A stretch of DNA of 64,000 nucleotides from Myxococcales bacterium (GTDB lineage: Bacteria; Myxococcota_A; Polyangia; Polyangiales; Polyangiaceae), in assembly GCA_025355005.1 (NCBI GenBank), contig JANXLV010000253.1:1-64000 (forward strand). The letters are read 5' to 3'. The notes beneath the pieces were generated by a model. That model worked only from the letters and a program-made list of their open reading frames with translations, searched no databases and was not told the origin of the DNA. How positions within the stretch are numbered: the stretch's first letter is position 1; each line of letters starts with the position of its first letter. The translations under genes and the position numbers were made by a program. This document shows, piece by piece, positions 1,921-29,028 of this stretch.

Positions 1921-2688
1921 CTATCTCGCTAGCACGGAGTTTCCGAAGTCTTCGCCGGAGCGCTTGTAGACTGGCGCGAACGCGTCTGCCTGATGCAGGA
2001 ACGGAACGCGCACGTAGCCCTCGGTGGGGGTGACCGATGCGAGCCATTGCTCGTGTGACGCGTCGCGGTCGCTCGCGGCCATGTGCGCTTCCACCGCGCG
2101 AAATGCGGGCAGCTGCGCGTGCGGGCCGTAGCCGACGTTCTGGGTCCAGATGCGGCACCAGATGATGTTCTGGCGGCAGTAGTTCCAGATCTGGTGCTCC
2201 AGGAAATCGTCGAAGCGCGGAGCATTTAGCGCGCGCACACGCTCGTCGCGAATGTGCTGCAACAGGGGCTCTGCGGCGAGGTCCTTCTTGCCGAGGAAGC
2301 GGTCGACCCAGATCTCGTGCGGGAACGTCTTCTCGCGCAGGCCGGGGATCTGGAGGTAGGCGGTGCACTCGGAGGCGATCGACGCCTCGAACTCCGCCTG
2401 GATCATCTTGCGCGACCACTCCGTCCACGTGGCGGTCGGCTGGAAACGGGTGACGCGCGTGTGGACGCACTCGTGCAGGTGATAGAGATCTTGCACCCAG
2501 CGGTTCGGATACGTGCGCCGCGTGAGCGCGCCGAAGTAGGTGCCGAAGTGGCCTGGGGGCATCGGATCGTCGGTGACCCACATCGAGAGGCCGTCGGTGA
2601 TGGTCTTGACCCACGCGGACGTGCGGAATTCTTCCGTGACCAGGAGGTCCAGCGCGGAGACCTTAAGAACGGTGATCGTCTCGAGCAT
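1921..2688 (-). CDS. unknown protein with HxxECVH motif, last gene of a three-gene operon
   Basis: A 255-residue soluble protein I do not recognise. It is rich in Trp, His and acidic residues. A helix-like segment HLHECVHTR lies near residue 73 and is followed about 25 residues later by EFEASIASE. Clustered His/Glu like this could bind a metal, for example an iron site in a helical-bundle oxygenase, but that is a guess. I chose the ATG at 2686-2688 because residues upstream of it look like out-of-frame sequence. The start overlaps the end of the PLP gene by 26 bp, so the two are probably translated together. Confidence 0.65.
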   Translation of the reverse strand: MLETITVLKVSALDLLVTEEFRTSAWVKTITDGLSMWVTDDPMPPGHFGTYFGALTRRTYPNRWVQDLYHLHECVHTRVTRFQPTATWTEWSRKMIQAEFEASIASECTAYLQIPGLREKTFPHEIWVDRFLGKKDLAAEPLLQHIRDERVRALNAPRFDDFLEHQIWNYCRQNIIWCRIWTQNVGYGPHAQLPAFRAVEAHMAASDRDASHEQWLASVTPTEGYVRVPFLHQADAFAPVYKRSGEDFGNSVLAR

Positions 2689-3610
2689 TCGTCTCTCCCT
2701 TGATAATCTTGTCCATGCCTTCGGTGAGGCAGAAGCGGTGGTGGCCTTTTGCGCGCATGAACTCCTCGGAGCCCGCCACGCCGTGCGGCGCGTGCGCGAG
2801 CAGCACCACGTCCGACGCGCGCACAGCGTCGGGCACGCGGCCATCGGCGACAAGCTGCGCCAGCACGCGCGCCTGGATCGGCGCGTATTTCGCGGGGAGC
2901 GCCGTCACGTCATGCGCCTTCATGAGCGCGGTGCCGAGCTTCAGCGAGAACAGGTTCTTGAACCACAGGTTCCCGATCAACGTTCCCATGGGGGTGCGGC
3001 TCACGCAGCCGCCGATGCGGTGATAGTAGACTCCCATTGGCTTGGAGAGGCTGAAGACCACGGCTGCGACGTTCGCGTGGCGCCGCGCATCCACTTTCAC
3101 CGGGCTCTTCGTCGCGCCCACGTATGTCACGTCCAGGTAGACACGCACTGTCGGCGCACGCGCGCGCAGCTCGTCCAGAAATGCGTCCAGGTCGCGCCAG
3201 ATGCAGCCGTCGATCGCGGACGGGAACGACACCCAGAACTGATCGTGCTCGCCGAAGGTCTCGCGCGCGGCAAGCACGCTGCGCTCGTGCGTGACGACCT
3301 GCATGCCGCGCTCGTGCGCAAGGATACCGTAGCCCTCGTAGTCGCCAGCGAACGTGTGGAGCGCGCCCGGCGGTAGCAACAAGTCCTTGATCGGCTCGGA
3401 GGCGCCGCTGGTGGGATACGCGTGTGGGAACGCATCGCCCAGCTCGAGACCGGACCATGCGCGCCACGTCGTAAGGAACTCGACGTGCATCGCGTCCTGG
3501 TGTTTCTCGTAGGCGCGCTCGTACCACTCGTGGTGATGTTCGCTCCAGAGGCGGTCGACGACGGCGCGCGTCTCCGGGTAGTAGAGCGAGTAGACCGTAC
3601 GCGTGAGCAT
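2663..3610 (-). CDS. PLP-dependent aminotransferase-fold enzyme
   Basis: A 315-residue protein with features of fold-type I PLP enzymes. VYLDVTYVG supplies the Asp that would contact the pyridine nitrogen. SLSKPMGVYYHRIGG carries the SxSK lysine that would bind PLP, at about residue 190. It is shorter than a typical 380-420 residue aminotransferase, so the small domain appears reduced. It begins 15 bp after the FAH-fusion gene ends and overlaps the next gene. The substrate is not predictable; an amino-acid or amine transfer or cleavage step is likely. Confidence 0.6.
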   Translation of the reverse strand: MLTRTVYSLYYPETRAVVDRLWSEHHHEWYERAYEKHQDAMHVEFLTTWRAWSGLELGDAFPHAYPTSGASEPIKDLLLPPGALHTFAGDYEGYGILAHERGMQVVTHERSVLAARETFGEHDQFWVSFPSAIDGCIWRDLDAFLDELRARAPTVRVYLDVTYVGATKSPVKVDARRHANVAAVVFSLSKPMGVYYHRIGGCVSRTPMGTLIGNLWFKNLFSLKLGTALMKAHDVTALPAKYAPIQARVLAQLVADGRVPDAVRASDVVLLAHAPHGVAGSEEFMRAKGHHRFCLTEGMDKIIKGETNARDDHRS

Positions 3611-3625
3611 GAGGCCGATCCTATC

Positions 3626-5503
3626 TCATCGTGGCCGCGGGTCGCCGATGGTCACGCGCAGGTCGCCCAGACCCGTGGCGCTGCACACGACCTCGTCGCC
3701 GGCGTGAAGCAAGGTCCCGCCACGTGCGTGTGCGCTCATGGCCGCACGCAGCTTGCCGAAGCGATCCAGCGCGACGTCCGCGATCGCCTTCTTCCATCGG
3801 GGCACGTGGAGACCGACGCCCGCGGGCGTCCCCGTGAGCAGCGCGAGGCCGGCCGGGAGATCGCCTCCCAGAAAGCGACTGGCCGCGACGAGCATCTGCC
3901 GCGGTGAGTAGATCAGGCTGGTGGTGCGCGCCTGCTGACGCAACTGTCCATTCACGCGGGTCGAGAGCTCGAGGTCGGGGAGCGTGTCGAGCGAGGCTTC
4001 GGCCCGCGGAAGCGCCATGGACGACACGGGAAGGAACTCCGGAAAGCCCTTGGCCACGGCCCAGTACGCGTAGGGATCCTTCTGGTCTTCGCCAAGGATC
4101 TGACACGAGCGCGCGGTGAGATCGTTCGCGAGGAACCAGGCGAATCGCGGCGCGCACGACGGATTCGCGAGGTCCTGTGCGCGTACCGTTTCAAGCAACA
4201 CGAGCCCGAGCTCCACTTCGTAGTCCATCAGCGGCGGGAGCACGTCCCACCGTTCGCGCAGGAGGGCGCTCACGCCGGGCTCGATCGACTCCAGCGCAGC
4301 CAGCATCTCGTCGCTCGTGGGCGTGACCACCATCGGCGACGCGTCCGCGTGTGCGACGCGGAGGGACCGCAGGTGCTTGCGAAAGACGATCGGCGACTCC
4401 GGCGCGCGCGAGCCAGTCTCGCGGACATGATCGACATAGGAGAGGCCAAGCGCCAGCACGTCGTCGATCCTTGGAAGCGGAACTGCGCGTGCATCAGCCG
4501 ATGCGAGCGCCGGTGAGCGGCTCGGTCGCGCCGCAGGGCCCGTGTCCTCCCAGCGGATGTACGAGAAGCCCGGCAGCGGCTCGGGCTGGTGAATCTCGAT
4601 CGCGCAGGCGTGTGCGTGCAGCACGCGTTCGAGCGAAAGGCTGAGCCCATGTCGGCGCCATACGCTGACCTCGCAGCGCCCGACGTCGCTCTGGGCCACG
4701 TACACCTCGCTGCCATCGGGCCCGCGGTACACATACCCGACGAAGCTCGATGGCTCTGCATACGCGCGGGTCACCAGCAGCCGCTTGCCCGCATGGGAGC
4801 GCACCTCGAGCACGCCGGGGCGGACGAGCTTCACGCGCGTGCGCGCGGTGCGCGAGACGCTGGTGCCGTCGATCGACAGGCCCTCCGCCGTGAGAACGAG
4901 CGACGCGACGCGCGGAACCCACGCCGCTCTGCGCGGACGTGCCGCGACGAGCTCCAGGCCGCCCTCGTCGCGTGGCTCATCGAACGACGGCGCCCAGAGC
5001 CAGAAGATCTCCTGCGGCTGCGACGTCCCGCCAATGCGCGCTTGCACCATGCGCGCGCGCGGGCCCAGCACGTGACGCTCGCCGTCGACATCCCAGAAGC
5101 CAGTGACCTTCGTGCGCGCGTGGACGTGCTCCGCGTGCGCCGGCAGCGGCAACCGCGAGAGCACACGCGGAGAGCGCTGCACCGTTCCATGCGCCTCGTC
5201 GAAGGCGAGCTCCCACGTGATCGTGCGCCCGGCGGCGCTCACCGTTCCCTTCGCGCGCGTGCTCTCGAAGGACGCGTCGCCGAGGGTCAGCTGCTCCGGA
5301 AACGGGAAGGGCACCGCGTCCTCCGGGTGGATCGACTTCAACGCGAGCGGCGGTCCCGCGTCCGAGAACGCAGCTGCCCAGCTCATGGCCTCGCCCGTTT
5401 CGTCCTTTCCTCGTCGCACCGTATGCCGCACCCAGAGCGCGCGCCGGGCATCCGGATCGATCACGACGTAGAAGCAGATGTCGAACGTCCCGCGAGCACT
5501 CAT
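3626..5503 (-). CDS. fusion of a CrtC/tocopherol-cyclase-like lipocalin domain with a fumarylacetoacetate-hydrolase domain
   Basis: A 625-residue two-domain protein and the first gene of the operon. Residues about 1-325 resemble the beta-barrel lipocalin family that includes hydroxyneurosporene synthase and AttH, with the usual ALWVRHTV opening and a GFWDVDGERH turn. Residues about 345-625 are an FAH-type hydrolase or isomerase with DYEVELG, NDLTAR, a GFPEFLPVS loop and TGTPAGVG, where the Glu residues bind a divalent metal. FAH enzymes cut C-C bonds of acylpyruvates or isomerise related products. I know of no characterised protein with this fusion. The start at 5503 lacks a clear Shine-Dalgarno sequence. 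Confidence 0.75.
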   Translation of the reverse strand: MSARGTFDICFYVVIDPDARRALWVRHTVRRGKDETGEAMSWAAAFSDAGPPLALKSIHPEDAVPFPFPEQLTLGDASFESTRAKGTVSAAGRTITWELAFDEAHGTVQRSPRVLSRLPLPAHAEHVHARTKVTGFWDVDGERHVLGPRARMVQARIGGTSQPQEIFWLWAPSFDEPRDEGGLELVAARPRRAAWVPRVASLVLTAEGLSIDGTSVSRTARTRVKLVRPGVLEVRSHAGKRLLVTRAYAEPSSFVGYVYRGPDGSEVYVAQSDVGRCEVSVWRRHGLSLSLERVLHAHACAIEIHQPEPLPGFSYIRWEDTGPAARPSRSPALASADARAVPLPRIDDVLALGLSYVDHVRETGSRAPESPIVFRKHLRSLRVAHADASPMVVTPTSDEMLAALESIEPGVSALLRERWDVLPPLMDYEVELGLVLLETVRAQDLANPSCAPRFAWFLANDLTARSCQILGEDQKDPYAYWAVAKGFPEFLPVSSMALPRAEASLDTLPDLELSTRVNGQLRQQARTTSLIYSPRQMLVAASRFLGGDLPAGLALLTGTPAGVGLHVPRWKKAIADVALDRFGKLRAAMSAHARGGTLLHAGDEVVCSATGLGDLRVTIGDPRPR

Positions 5504-5620: not shown

Positions 5621-6037
5621 GTGCATGAAGTCTTGAAGCCCGAGCTGCACTATCTCGCGTGGACCGCCCTCCTGACGGGCTGCCTCTGGATCCCCGTCGT
5701 CATCGGCTACGCGCGATCGCGCGGACCGCTCAAGCCGGAGGACTACGTGGTGGCGCCGACCACGCCGCTCCCCGCCTGGGTGAACCGCGCGAATCGCGCG
5801 CACATCAACGCGGTGGAGAGCCTGGTTCCTTTCGCGACGGTCGTGCTCATCGCGCAGGCCGTGGGTGTCTCCACGCCCATCACCGCGTACGCGGCGGCGA
5901 CCTACTTCTTCGTGCGGCTGGCCCACGCCGTGGTCCACATCAGCGGCATGTCGGCGATTCGCCTCCGCACATTGCTCTTCACCGTCGGGTGGGGCGCGTT
6001 CGTCACGATGGCAGTGGAGCTCTTGCGCCACACCTGA
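5621..6037 (+). CDS. MAPEG-family membrane protein
   Basis: A 138-residue protein with four hydrophobic segments. It has the small loop and the NRANRAHINAVESLVPF stretch typical of the MAPEG family, which includes microsomal glutathione transferases and similar trimers. The usual family length is about 130 residues. I chose GTG 5621 because GAGAGG precedes it by 5-6 bases and an in-frame ATG is absent nearby. It may conjugate glutathione or act on lipid peroxides, but bacterial members are mostly uncharacterised. It diverges from the FAH-fusion operon. Confidence 0.8.
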   Translation: MHEVLKPELHYLAWTALLTGCLWIPVVIGYARSRGPLKPEDYVVAPTTPLPAWVNRANRAHINAVESLVPFATVVLIAQAVGVSTPITAYAAATYFFVRLAHAVVHISGMSAIRLRTLLFTVGWGAFVTMAVELLRHT

Positions 6038-18553: not shown

Positions 18554-19351
18554 ATGGCCATCGAGCAGCTCGGACACGTGGACGTGAGGAGCGGCATCTT
18601 GTGCGTGCTCGACTTCGGCATGGCCGGCGCGTTCTCGAACGATCCGCAGGGCGCTGCTGCGGCACGACAAGCGCTGCAGCAAGGAGCGTATTGTTTCACG
18701 CACAACGACGTGCCCGCGATCGTCGTACCCAACCTTCCACCGGGTCGCTACCCAGTGAGCTGCGTGCGGCTGGAGCAGGGAGAATTTGCGGGGATGCGAC
18801 AGGCGGTGATGGTGGACTTCGTCCCGAACCCGCAGGCGGCGCGCACGATCGAGCTCGGCAAGGTGATCGTGGACAATGCACGCCTTGGGTTCTTCGACCT
18901 CGACGCGCTCGCGCACTGGAACGAGGAGCGTCCGGTCGACGGCATGGCCGACGTCGCGTTCTGGGGTCTGCACGAGAACGAGGTCGCCGCCCGCTTCCGC
19001 GCGCCCAAGCTGGGTGAGGACGGCTCAGGCTTCGCGAACATGCCGGTCGCGCAGGCAGAGGCATTCGCGCGCGATCTGGAGGCGCTGAAGAACAGCGGGC
19101 AGTTCCGCTTCGCGTGGGACTTCCGCCCCCACAATCATCCGTTCTACATGCTGGCGCAGATCCGGAAGAACCAGAACGAAGCAGGCGTCCTCGACGTGGG
19201 CGGCACCATGGCGTGCGGCTTCATGACGTCGTGGGGCGACGGCGAGTTCCCCGTGCTGATCGATCTCGACGCGCAGAACCGCCCCATTCGTTGCGGGCTC
19301 TTCTTCGCAACGAACGAGGCGATGGCGAACATGCGCTCCGTGAACAGCTAG
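18554..19351 (+). CDS. conserved hypothetical protein, DUF4241-like
   Basis: 265 residues with GGGGAG placed before the ATG. The N-terminal part is beta-rich with VRSGILCVLDFGMAG. The C-terminus holds SWGDGEFPVLIDLDAQNRPIRCG, similar in layout to the glycine/aspartate-rich end of DUF4241 proteins, where SGDGxYPV is common. That link is tentative. No signal peptide or membrane span. It follows the lactonase-like gene by 12 bp and probably shares its transcript. Confidence 0.6.
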   Translation: MAIEQLGHVDVRSGILCVLDFGMAGAFSNDPQGAAAARQALQQGAYCFTHNDVPAIVVPNLPPGRYPVSCVRLEQGEFAGMRQAVMVDFVPNPQAARTIELGKVIVDNARLGFFDLDALAHWNEERPVDGMADVAFWGLHENEVAARFRAPKLGEDGSGFANMPVAQAEAFARDLEALKNSGQFRFAWDFRPHNHPFYMLAQIRKNQNEAGVLDVGGTMACGFMTSWGDGEFPVLIDLDAQNRPIRCGLFFATNEAMANMRSVNS

Positions 19352-19356
19352 GGAAG

Positions 19357-19458
19357 GTCGAAGTCGAGGTCGAAGTCGAGGTCGAAGTCGAGGTCGAAGT
19401 CGTCGTCGAGGTCGAGGTCGAGGTCGAAGTCGAAGTCGAGGTCGAGGTCGTCGTCGAG
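19357..19458 (+). repeat. GTCGAR hexamer array 1 (17 units)
   Basis: Seventeen consecutive hexamers of GTCGAA, GTCGAG and two GTCGTC, beginning 5 bp after a stop codon and ending directly at the ATG at 19459. Read as protein it would give Val-Glu repeats, but it lies between genes. Two relatives lie at 33953 and 52993 in the same orientation. Confidence 0.9.
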
Positions 19459-20454
19459 ATGGTGGTGGCGCCGCGGACCGTGTTGATCATGCTGTGGAGG
19501 AGCGCCGGTGTTACCCTACCGGACGCGGGCTTGCACGAAGGCGCATACAGAGACGCGAGCGCGGGGCTTCGGCAACACATCGCCGACGCGGACCTCGCGG
19601 CGTCGCAGCGGAGGGCGCGCATGACGGAGGCGCTGTGGATGCTGCTGCCCTCCGAGCTGAGCTCGCGCATCCGTCGCTTGTCGGAGATCGCTTTGCCCGA
19701 CGACGCGTCGTTCGAGGTGCTCACGCGCGTGGCAGATCAGCGACTCGAGCTGGTCGACGCGCTCGACGAGGCGCTCGCGCTGGCACCCACGCTCGCTTCT
19801 GGTGTGACGGATGCACGGGATGGCACGCCGTCGCCGCCCGCGCAGGACGACACGTGGGGACCCGCTGGTACGGAGGACGCGATCATCCCTCTTCGCGGCC
19901 AGGCTCAGCGGATCGTCGCGTCACTGGATGCCTCCGCGGGCGTCGTGACACGAGGAGCGCGCATCACCGCGCGGATGACGGTGGAAGCCGTGCCCGTGCT
20001 CTGGGTCGTCGAGCTCGGCGCGGCGATCAACGTCAATCGTGGCCTGGAGACCGGCGTCACGTTCCTTCGTGCGCGTCACCTGGTGGAGGTCAACGTGCCG
20101 GCGGAGCTGCCGCGCATGCGGGTGCGGCCCCAGGGCATTGCCGATTCCGTGTTGAAGCTGCTCTCGCTCGCGCACGAGCTCGCGCTCGGTGACGAGAGCT
20201 TCGATAGTGTGTGCTTCGTGGAAGGTGACGCCGCGTTCGCCATGCAGCTCTTGCCGGAGGACGTGCGGAGCCGTCTCGTTTCGCGCGTGAAATGTGGGGA
20301 TTTCAGGCTCGCGCTCGATGGCGGCGTCGCTGCGCTCTCGTGGACGCGGTCCGGGTTCTCGCTCATCGCGAGCGAGGACGTCACTGCGTCGGTGCTGGTC
20401 GTTGCGGCGCTCCGTCAGGCCGCGGCGAACGTCAAGCTGCTCCGTGACTCCTGA
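19459..20454 (+). CDS. hypothetical protein, helical N-terminus and beta-rich C-terminus
   Basis: 331 residues from ATG 19459; ATG 19489 or GTG 19480 are equally plausible because the hexamer array occupies the place of the ribosome-binding site. The N-terminal 110 residues are helical and acidic (ASQRRARMTEALWMLLPSEL). After a Pro/Asp linker the C-terminal 190 residues contain strands such as ARITARMTVEAVPVLWVVEL. No motif is recognised. The stop lies inside the end of the convergent ABC permease gene (23-bp overlap). Confidence 0.55.
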   Translation: MVVAPRTVLIMLWRSAGVTLPDAGLHEGAYRDASAGLRQHIADADLAASQRRARMTEALWMLLPSELSSRIRRLSEIALPDDASFEVLTRVADQRLELVDALDEALALAPTLASGVTDARDGTPSPPAQDDTWGPAGTEDAIIPLRGQAQRIVASLDASAGVVTRGARITARMTVEAVPVLWVVELGAAINVNRGLETGVTFLRARHLVEVNVPAELPRMRVRPQGIADSVLKLLSLAHELALGDESFDSVCFVEGDAAFAMQLLPEDVRSRLVSRVKCGDFRLALDGGVAALSWTRSGFSLIASEDVTASVLVVAALRQAAANVKLLRDS

Positions 20455-27476: not shown

Positions 27477-28310
27477 ATGCCCGAGGGCGACACGATCTAC
27501 CGGCTCGCGGAGAAGGTGCGTGACGCCGTGCTCGGGAAGGTCGTCACGGCGTTCTCCACGCATGCCATCGCCGATGACGTCGCGCGCACCGTCGTGGGCC
27601 ATGTCGTCGTGGAGGTGGTGTCGCGCGGAAAGAACCTGCTCGTTCGTTTCGACGACGGACGCACGCTGCATATCCATCTGCGCATGCTGGGACGTGTCGT
27701 GGTGCGACGGGGCAACGTCGTCGCGGTGACGGCGCGCCCACCGCAGCTTGTCCTCGATGTCCCTGGCGCGAGCATTCGCGGCAGCCGCATCCCGGTGCTC
27801 CGCCTGTTGCGCGCAGGCGCCGAGGCACGCGCGCCCGATCTTCGTTCCCTCGGGCCTGACCTCCTGTCACCTGACTTCGACGAAGACCTCGCGGTGCGAC
27901 GGCTGCGCGTGCTCGCGAAGCGACCCATCGGCGACGCGATCATGCAGCAGCGCGCGGTCGCGGGCATCGGCAACGTCTACAAGTCCGAGGTGCTGTTCCT
28001 CGAGCGCATCGATCCCCGCGTGCCGGTCTCCGCGCTCGACGCGAGCACGCTCAGACGGATCCTGAAGCGTGCGCGCGCGCTGCTCTCCGCGAACGTGAAG
28101 GGGGGACCACGCGTCACGCGCAATAGCCTCGCGGGGCCGCGCACGTGGGTCTACCTGCGCGCGCGAAAGGCGTGTTTCGTGTGCGGTGGAGCGATCGCGG
28201 CTCTGCAGCAAGGCGCGCCGCCCGGGCGGACGACCTACTTCTGTCCGCGCTGCCAGGGCGGGCTCACGCCTCCTGGGAAACCGACACGCGCAGCGTCCCA
28301 AGACCGGTGA
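27477..28310 (+). CDS. Fpg/Nei-family DNA glycosylase (Nei-type)
   Basis: 277 residues. The start MPEGDTIYRLAEKV is the catalytic N-terminus: Pro2 and Glu3 form the Schiff base and assist beta/delta elimination. HLRMLG near residue 63 provides the conserved Met-containing loop. AGIGNVYKSEVLF near 163 is the helix-two-turn-helix. The C-terminal zinc finger reads CFVCGG then CPRCQGG. MPEGDT rather than MPELPE places it with Nei (endonuclease VIII). It removes oxidised pyrimidines. It follows lhr by 9 bp and overlaps the convergent FAH gene by 47 bp. Confidence 0.92.
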   Translation: MPEGDTIYRLAEKVRDAVLGKVVTAFSTHAIADDVARTVVGHVVVEVVSRGKNLLVRFDDGRTLHIHLRMLGRVVVRRGNVVAVTARPPQLVLDVPGASIRGSRIPVLRLLRAGAEARAPDLRSLGPDLLSPDFDEDLAVRRLRVLAKRPIGDAIMQQRAVAGIGNVYKSEVLFLERIDPRVPVSALDASTLRRILKRARALLSANVKGGPRVTRNSLAGPRTWVYLRARKACFVCGGAIAALQQGAPPGRTTYFCPRCQGGLTPPGKPTRAASQDR

Positions 28311-29028
28311 CCTCTACCTCGACGGCGTCACCGTCGACGATCGGCCCCACGCCGTCCGGCGAGCCGCTCAGGAAGAGATCGCCCGCATCGATGGTCATCG
28401 ACTGGCTCACGTGCGCGATGAACGTGGGGATGTCGAAGATCATGTCGGTCGTACGACCGTCTTGTTTCACGACGCCGTTCACGCGGCAGATCACGTGTGC
28501 GGCGGGGACGTCGAGCTCCGTCTCGATGAACGGGCCCACGGGACAGAACGTGTCGGAGCCCTTCGCGCGCCACCATTGACCGTCGCCTTTCTGCCAGTCA
28601 CGCGCGGACACGTCGAGCGCACATGTGTAGCCGAAGATGGCCGCCTGCGCCTCGTCGCGCGTGGCCTTCTTCAGCGTCTTGCCGATGACGATCGCGAGCT
28701 CACCTTCGTGCTCCACGCGCGTCGCGCCCTTCGGCAAGATGACCTTGTCACCGGGGCCCGCGAGCGAGCTCGGCGGCTTCAGGAAGATCATGGGCTCCTT
28801 CGGCAGCTCGTTGCCCATCTCCTTCGCATGCGCCGCGTAGTTGCGACCCACGCAGAGGATCTTGCGCGGCGCCACCGGGCACCCGAGGTCCTCCTCGGCG
28901 AATTCGTGCGCTTTCCCCGTTTCCTTCCCGCCGAGCCACGGCGGTGCGCCGTAGTGAATGGCCTTGTTTCCATCGAAGCGGCAGAAGATGCGGCCCATGT
29001 TGCGGTCGATGATGATCCCGAATCGCAT
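28264..29028 (-). CDS. fumarylacetoacetate hydrolase family protein
   Basis: 254 residues. The core has KILCVGRNYAAHAKEMG near residue 57, then IFLKPPSSLAGPG, EGELAIVIGK near 107 carrying the metal-binding Glu, FGYTCALDVSARDWQ near 130 and LSGSPDGVGP near 220. This is the usual single-domain FAH fold that cleaves acylpyruvates or acts as an oxaloacetate tautomerase. AGGA lies 6 bases before the ATG. It is distinct from the FAH-fusion gene at 3.6 kb, which carries a second domain. Confidence 0.9.
   Translation of the reverse strand: MRFGIIIDRNMGRIFCRFDGNKAIHYGAPPWLGGKETGKAHEFAEEDLGCPVAPRKILCVGRNYAAHAKEMGNELPKEPMIFLKPPSSLAGPGDKVILPKGATRVEHEGELAIVIGKTLKKATRDEAQAAIFGYTCALDVSARDWQKGDGQWWRAKGSDTFCPVGPFIETELDVPAAHVICRVNGVVKQDGRTTDMIFDIPTFIAHVSQSMTIDAGDLFLSGSPDGVGPIVDGDAVEVEVTGLGTLRVSVSQEA

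Follow-up and report, generated by a model that had tools for sequence, protein, structure and literature searches.

The locus holds three open reading frames, P0001, P0002 and P0003, all on the minus strand of the window, by which we mean the whole stretch of 64,000 nucleotides that was analysed (Table 1). P0001 and P0002 are 15 bp apart (3611-3625), and the reading frames of P0002 and P0003 overlap by 26 bp (2663-2688); the coordinates that we recovered agree with the original prediction in strand, gap and overlap. The P0003 ATG is preceded by a Shine-Dalgarno-like AGGGAG and the P0002 start by AGGA, and the GC3 of the three genes (0.84-0.875) is similar to that of the rest of the window's genes. 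No promoter-like site was found by a scan that covers sigma-70 sites only. Divergent from the operon lies a membrane gene of the MAPEG family (5624-6034, plus strand; PF01124, 2e-21), a glutathione-linked neighbour, and farther along the window a called ORF (19291-20454, plus strand) starts with a long Val/Glu repeat (VEVEVEV...).

Table 1. Positions of the three genes and of features within them
Feature	Coordinates	Strand	Description
P0001	3626..5503	-	625 aa; N-domain (about 1-325), possibly AttH/CrtC/tocopherol-cyclase-like, and FAH hydrolase (349-619)
N-terminal domain of P0001, putatively lipocalin-like	4529..5503	-	HxW positions are R156 and G158
FAH hydrolase domain of P0001	3647..4459	-	residues 349-619
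P0002	2663..3610	-	315 aa; assigned to PLP fold type I, nearest CobD/HisC; K190, D160, R198, R292
P0003	1921..2688	-	255 aa, ATG start; probable gluzincin-type metalloprotein
HECVH codons	2461..2475	-	P0003 residues 72-76, computed from the start at 2688; HEIVH in L009, the P0003 relative

The P0001 fusion and its distribution

The FAH domain predicted for the first gene is borne out by a Pfam match to FAA_hydrolase (PF01557; E=3e-28, 99.3 bits against a gathering score of 23.9), and its relatives in the PDB include FAHD1 and diketo-acid hydrolases. The catalytic residues are all present (H359, E362, E429, E431, D461, R465, Q468 and K485). Among 16 loci, a count that includes the window, the metal-binding E-x-E and D, the network K and the dyad E are kept in every case and the dyad H in 15, and R465 and Q468 are invariant in the alignment of relatives. 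FAHD1 uses H30-E33, E71, D102, R106, Q109 and K123 (PMC8398924), and from the spacing we infer that the P0001 residues correspond to this set, H359-x2-E362 being the likely counterpart of H30-E33. The window also encodes a second, ordinary FAH hydrolase of 254 aa (28264-29028, minus strand; PF01557, 3e-69), which has no N-domain.

Pfam gives no direct match for the first 325 residues, and CrtC (PF07143) is matched neither by P0001 nor by its relatives. Paralogues of this domain, from this genome and from the class, give weak matches to Tocopherol_cycl (PF14249; at best 1.1e-5, just below the Pfam cut-off), to DUF7065 and to the Rv3169 family; these matches place the domain, weakly, near the AttH/CrtC/tocopherol-cyclase superfamily. 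The original prediction of a lipocalin-like barrel of the hydroxyneurosporene synthase/AttH type thus keeps the paralogue matches, all below cut-offs, but gains no direct Pfam match. CrtC requires a His and a Trp one residue apart, H239-x-W241 (PMC4717167). The His of this HxW is found in 14 of the 16 aligned sequences and a Trp or Tyr in 14, and P0001 is the only one to have lost both, with R156 and G158 in their places; given this replacement, CrtC-like hydratase activity of the window's copy appears unlikely. Elsewhere in the same genome (L033, 1408-2427, with flanks to 3834), a paralogue of the N-domain lies between genes that by eye resemble a GMC oxidoreductase and a phytoene desaturase, neighbours hinting at isoprenoid or carotenoid metabolism.

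The N-domain is matched in 124 of 308 Polyangia genomes. The loci that we inspected are the best of these matches, and 16 of them have both domains: 13 join N-domain and FAH in one chain, as had been predicted for P0001, and three carry them as separate tandem genes, with a 4-bp overlap in G178 and G453 (L036 and L039) and a gap of ~20 bp between the called genes in G541 (L037). The proviso attached to the original prediction, that the fusion might turn out to be two separate genes in related strains, therefore holds for three loci and not for the 13 others. At two further loci, in G383 and G321, the N-domain is present but its surroundings gave no FAH match. Recurrence of an AttH/CrtC-like plus FAH fusion across Polyangia, split in some genomes, suggests that both domains act on the same molecule and offers a tangible clue to what AttH-like barrels do. 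At the other 15 loci the sequence retrieved on either side, mostly about 7 kb and less where a contig stopped, gave no match to a PLP gene or an HExxH gene, and because of this we regard the fusion as a stand-alone unit with variable neighbours.

A PLP enzyme paired with a probable metalloprotein

P0002 alone gives no direct match to a PLP family. When P0002, its orthologue in G100 and a relative from G178 (27% identical to P0002) are combined in a profile, this aligns with ordinary myxobacterial aminotransferases in hhalign at 99.0% probability (pairwise E 8e-18) and matches HisC 3hdo at 1.3e-4. The G100 orthologue matches the CobD model TIGR01140 at 1.5e-7 over 69-267 of its 331 positions, scoring 30.9 bits against a curated cut-off of 290.55 that it does not reach; P0002 itself is not among the listed matches. 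The PLP motifs GASE, YEGY, D160-x2-Y163, SLSK (187-190), R198 and a C-terminal R292 are at the expected positions, with K190 as the Schiff-base lysine by motif, and the AlphaFold model, although weak (pLDDT 44), draws top Foldseek matches that are nearly all of PLP fold type I. Weak A5 matches to ordinary aminotransferases were used solely to confirm the fold. By profile and motifs, P0002 is assigned as a fold-type-I PLP enzyme nearest CobD/HisC. The predicted PLP enzyme with SxSK is accordingly upheld in motif and fold, but the description of it as strongly reduced is not, since 315 residues are near-normal beside a CobD model of 331. A GDSL match of P0002 in Pfam (0.002) was rejected as chance, and a PLP match at L052 was rejected on finding the site inside an aldehyde-dehydrogenase-like ORF.

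In P0002, A132 (within PSAIDG) stands where NPTG has its usual Asn, a change through which activity could have been altered or lost. Taken with the loss of both H and W of HxW in P0001 alone of 16 sequences, it might be read as a sign that the operon survives as a remnant that is decaying or has been neofunctionalised, with altered PLP binding, a degenerate N-domain and parts that are no longer catalytic. We consider this very improbable: the frames are open, the rest of the PLP and FAH residues are unchanged, and PSAIDG is kept in the G100 orthologue and P-x3-DG in the G178 relative, so that the Asn replacement is a family trait and not decay.

Pfam and other family and structure searches returned no convincing match for P0003, and a HapK match (0.095) was rejected as chance. 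Its sole relative, about 40% identical, is L009 on JAIBBS010000005.1 of the Nannocystaceae MAG SSF46 (G100). The sequence HLHECVHTR, which the original prediction had pointed out without naming HExxH, is indeed present, and both proteins share HExxH-x22-ExxA, the invariant positions being H72-E73-x2-H76, E99, A102, S103, E107 and E164. In 20,000 column shuffles of the pair, a shared HExxH arose in 0.25% (frequency 0.0025) and HExxH with ExxA[S/D/N] in none, and chance conservation of HExxH was rejected. Gluzincins are marked by an HExxH that is followed downstream by ExxA (PMC6414381), and P0003 is probably a gluzincin-type zinc enzyme, as judged by conservation between two sequences, one of them from the single other genome.

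The third protein had been predicted to be Glu-rich and possibly iron-binding, perhaps with a heme-oxygenase-like diiron fold. The putative metal site survives this comparison; a helical diiron oxygenase, heme-oxygenase-like or ferritin-like, that works with the PLP enzyme seems improbable. The weak AlphaFold model of P0003 (pLDDT 42), for which Foldseek gave no usable match, is all-helical, with helices at 63-79, 88-113 and 159-185 as a diiron protein might have; E73-x2-H76 reads as ExxH, and E99, E107 and E164 are invariant. However, ExxH occurs once in P0003, HxxxDxxH (HxxxD/ExxH) is absent from both sequences, ExxxxxxH is in the L009 relative and not in P0003, and what is invariant instead, HExxH+ExxA, is the gluzincin pattern. 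Distant short relatives of P0002 in G178 and G541 (L051, 4741-6812; L079, 5119-7256) each follow a gene for a protein of 359-381 aa with an HxD...H pattern, which is Fe/2OG-oxygenase-like by eye only and for which Pfam and PDB searches gave nothing; an oxygenase-like neighbour of this kind would also suit a diiron partner.

In G100 the orthologues of P0002 (50% identical) and P0003 are adjacent, in the same order and on the same strand, with a 4-bp overlap. Among 318 Polyangia genomes, a profile found P0003 in G000 and G100 only, and a search of 284 genomes drawn from the phylum found it in the same two only; pattern scans of genome contigs (P0003, A2) and viral contigs (A1, A2, A6) led to the Nannocystaceae MAG alone. 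Plasmids yielded no relatives of P0002, P0003, their G100 orthologues or the G178 PLP protein, and phages no relatives of P0003. Upstream of the G100 pair, on the opposite strand, are HTTM-like and radical SAM/SPASM genes (L007, 2254-6682). It is conceivable, though we hold it only tentatively, that P0003 is the first member of a new family of metalloenzymes and is dedicated to working with a divergent PLP enzyme of the CobD-like kind; the two proteins would then carry out a hitherto undescribed chemistry, which within the searches made is limited to two myxobacteria. If the pair is such a dedicated couple, it would represent unexplored PLP and metal chemistry from myxobacteria, a productive natural-product group.

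Two proposed modules and the known systems nearest to them

The reading that we somewhat favour is of two independent enzyme modules that happen to lie within a single transcription unit, with P0001 as Module A (3626-5503) and the P0002-P0003 pair as Module B (1921-3610). The substrate of Module A would be an acylpyruvate-like 2,4-dioxo acid, which the FAHD1-type domain would cleave or decarboxylate and whose hydrophobic acyl or isoprenoid part the AttH/CrtC-like barrel would bind, so that P0001 may be a bifunctional or substrate-holding C-C hydrolase. In Module B, P0003, as a gluzincin-type zinc hydrolase, might hydrolyse an amide and so free a small molecule with an amino group; P0002, being CobD/HisC-like, might decarboxylate or transaminate that molecule. 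Co-transcription, the zinc, the substrates and the sequence of the reactions are inferred, and so is any connection of A with B, two modules whose sole tie is position.

PLP transaminases yield oxo acids that are used by FAH enzymes. The three genes could accordingly form one small route, in which a metalloenzyme acts on an amino compound, the PLP enzyme converts the product to a 2-oxo or 2,4-dioxo acid and the FAH domain cleaves it; the tight same-strand spacing and a chemistry that would chain plausibly speak for this route; the original prediction had been of a small biosynthetic or catabolic route that it did not name. We think it rather unlikely. The proviso of that prediction, that the genes might nowhere else be neighbours, holds for the trio in the genomes searched but fails for genes two and three, which adjoin in G100. 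Around the 15 further fusion loci neither gene of the pair was matched in the flanks retrieved, and in G100, home of the second copy of the pair, P0001 drew no match at E<=1e-3, an empty answer that alone shows little. A conserved three-gene pathway is for these reasons not supported, and pair and fusion are each supported as a unit. Two of the three proteins belong to no named family; the P0001 fusion is widespread in its class, and the P0002-P0003 pair is very rare.

Under the two-module reading, each part can be set beside a known system. P0001 resembles the FAHD1/FAH superfamily (PF01557) in its H-x2-E dyad and its E-x-E, D, R, Q and K network, with matching spacing, and differs by an extra N-domain of 325 residues. 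That domain recalls AttH, CrtC and tocopherol cyclase (PF07143, PF14249), in that HxWG is kept in most relatives of P0001; the matches, however, all fall below the Pfam cut-off, and P0001 itself differs in missing H and W and in being fused to FAH. P0002 shares with the L-threonine-O-3-phosphate decarboxylase CobD and with HisC (TIGR01140, TIGR01141) GASE, D-x2-Y, SLSK, an R eight residues after the K and a C-terminal R, and a similar length (315-328 against 331). In contrast to CobD, it lacks the Asn of NPTG, and no cobalamin genes were noticed near it; the score of the orthologue lies about 260 bits below the CobD cut-off. P0003, although in no detectable sequence family, has in common with gluzincin metallopeptidases the HExxH-x22-ExxA arrangement and, as weakly predicted, an active-site helix and a glutamate helix.
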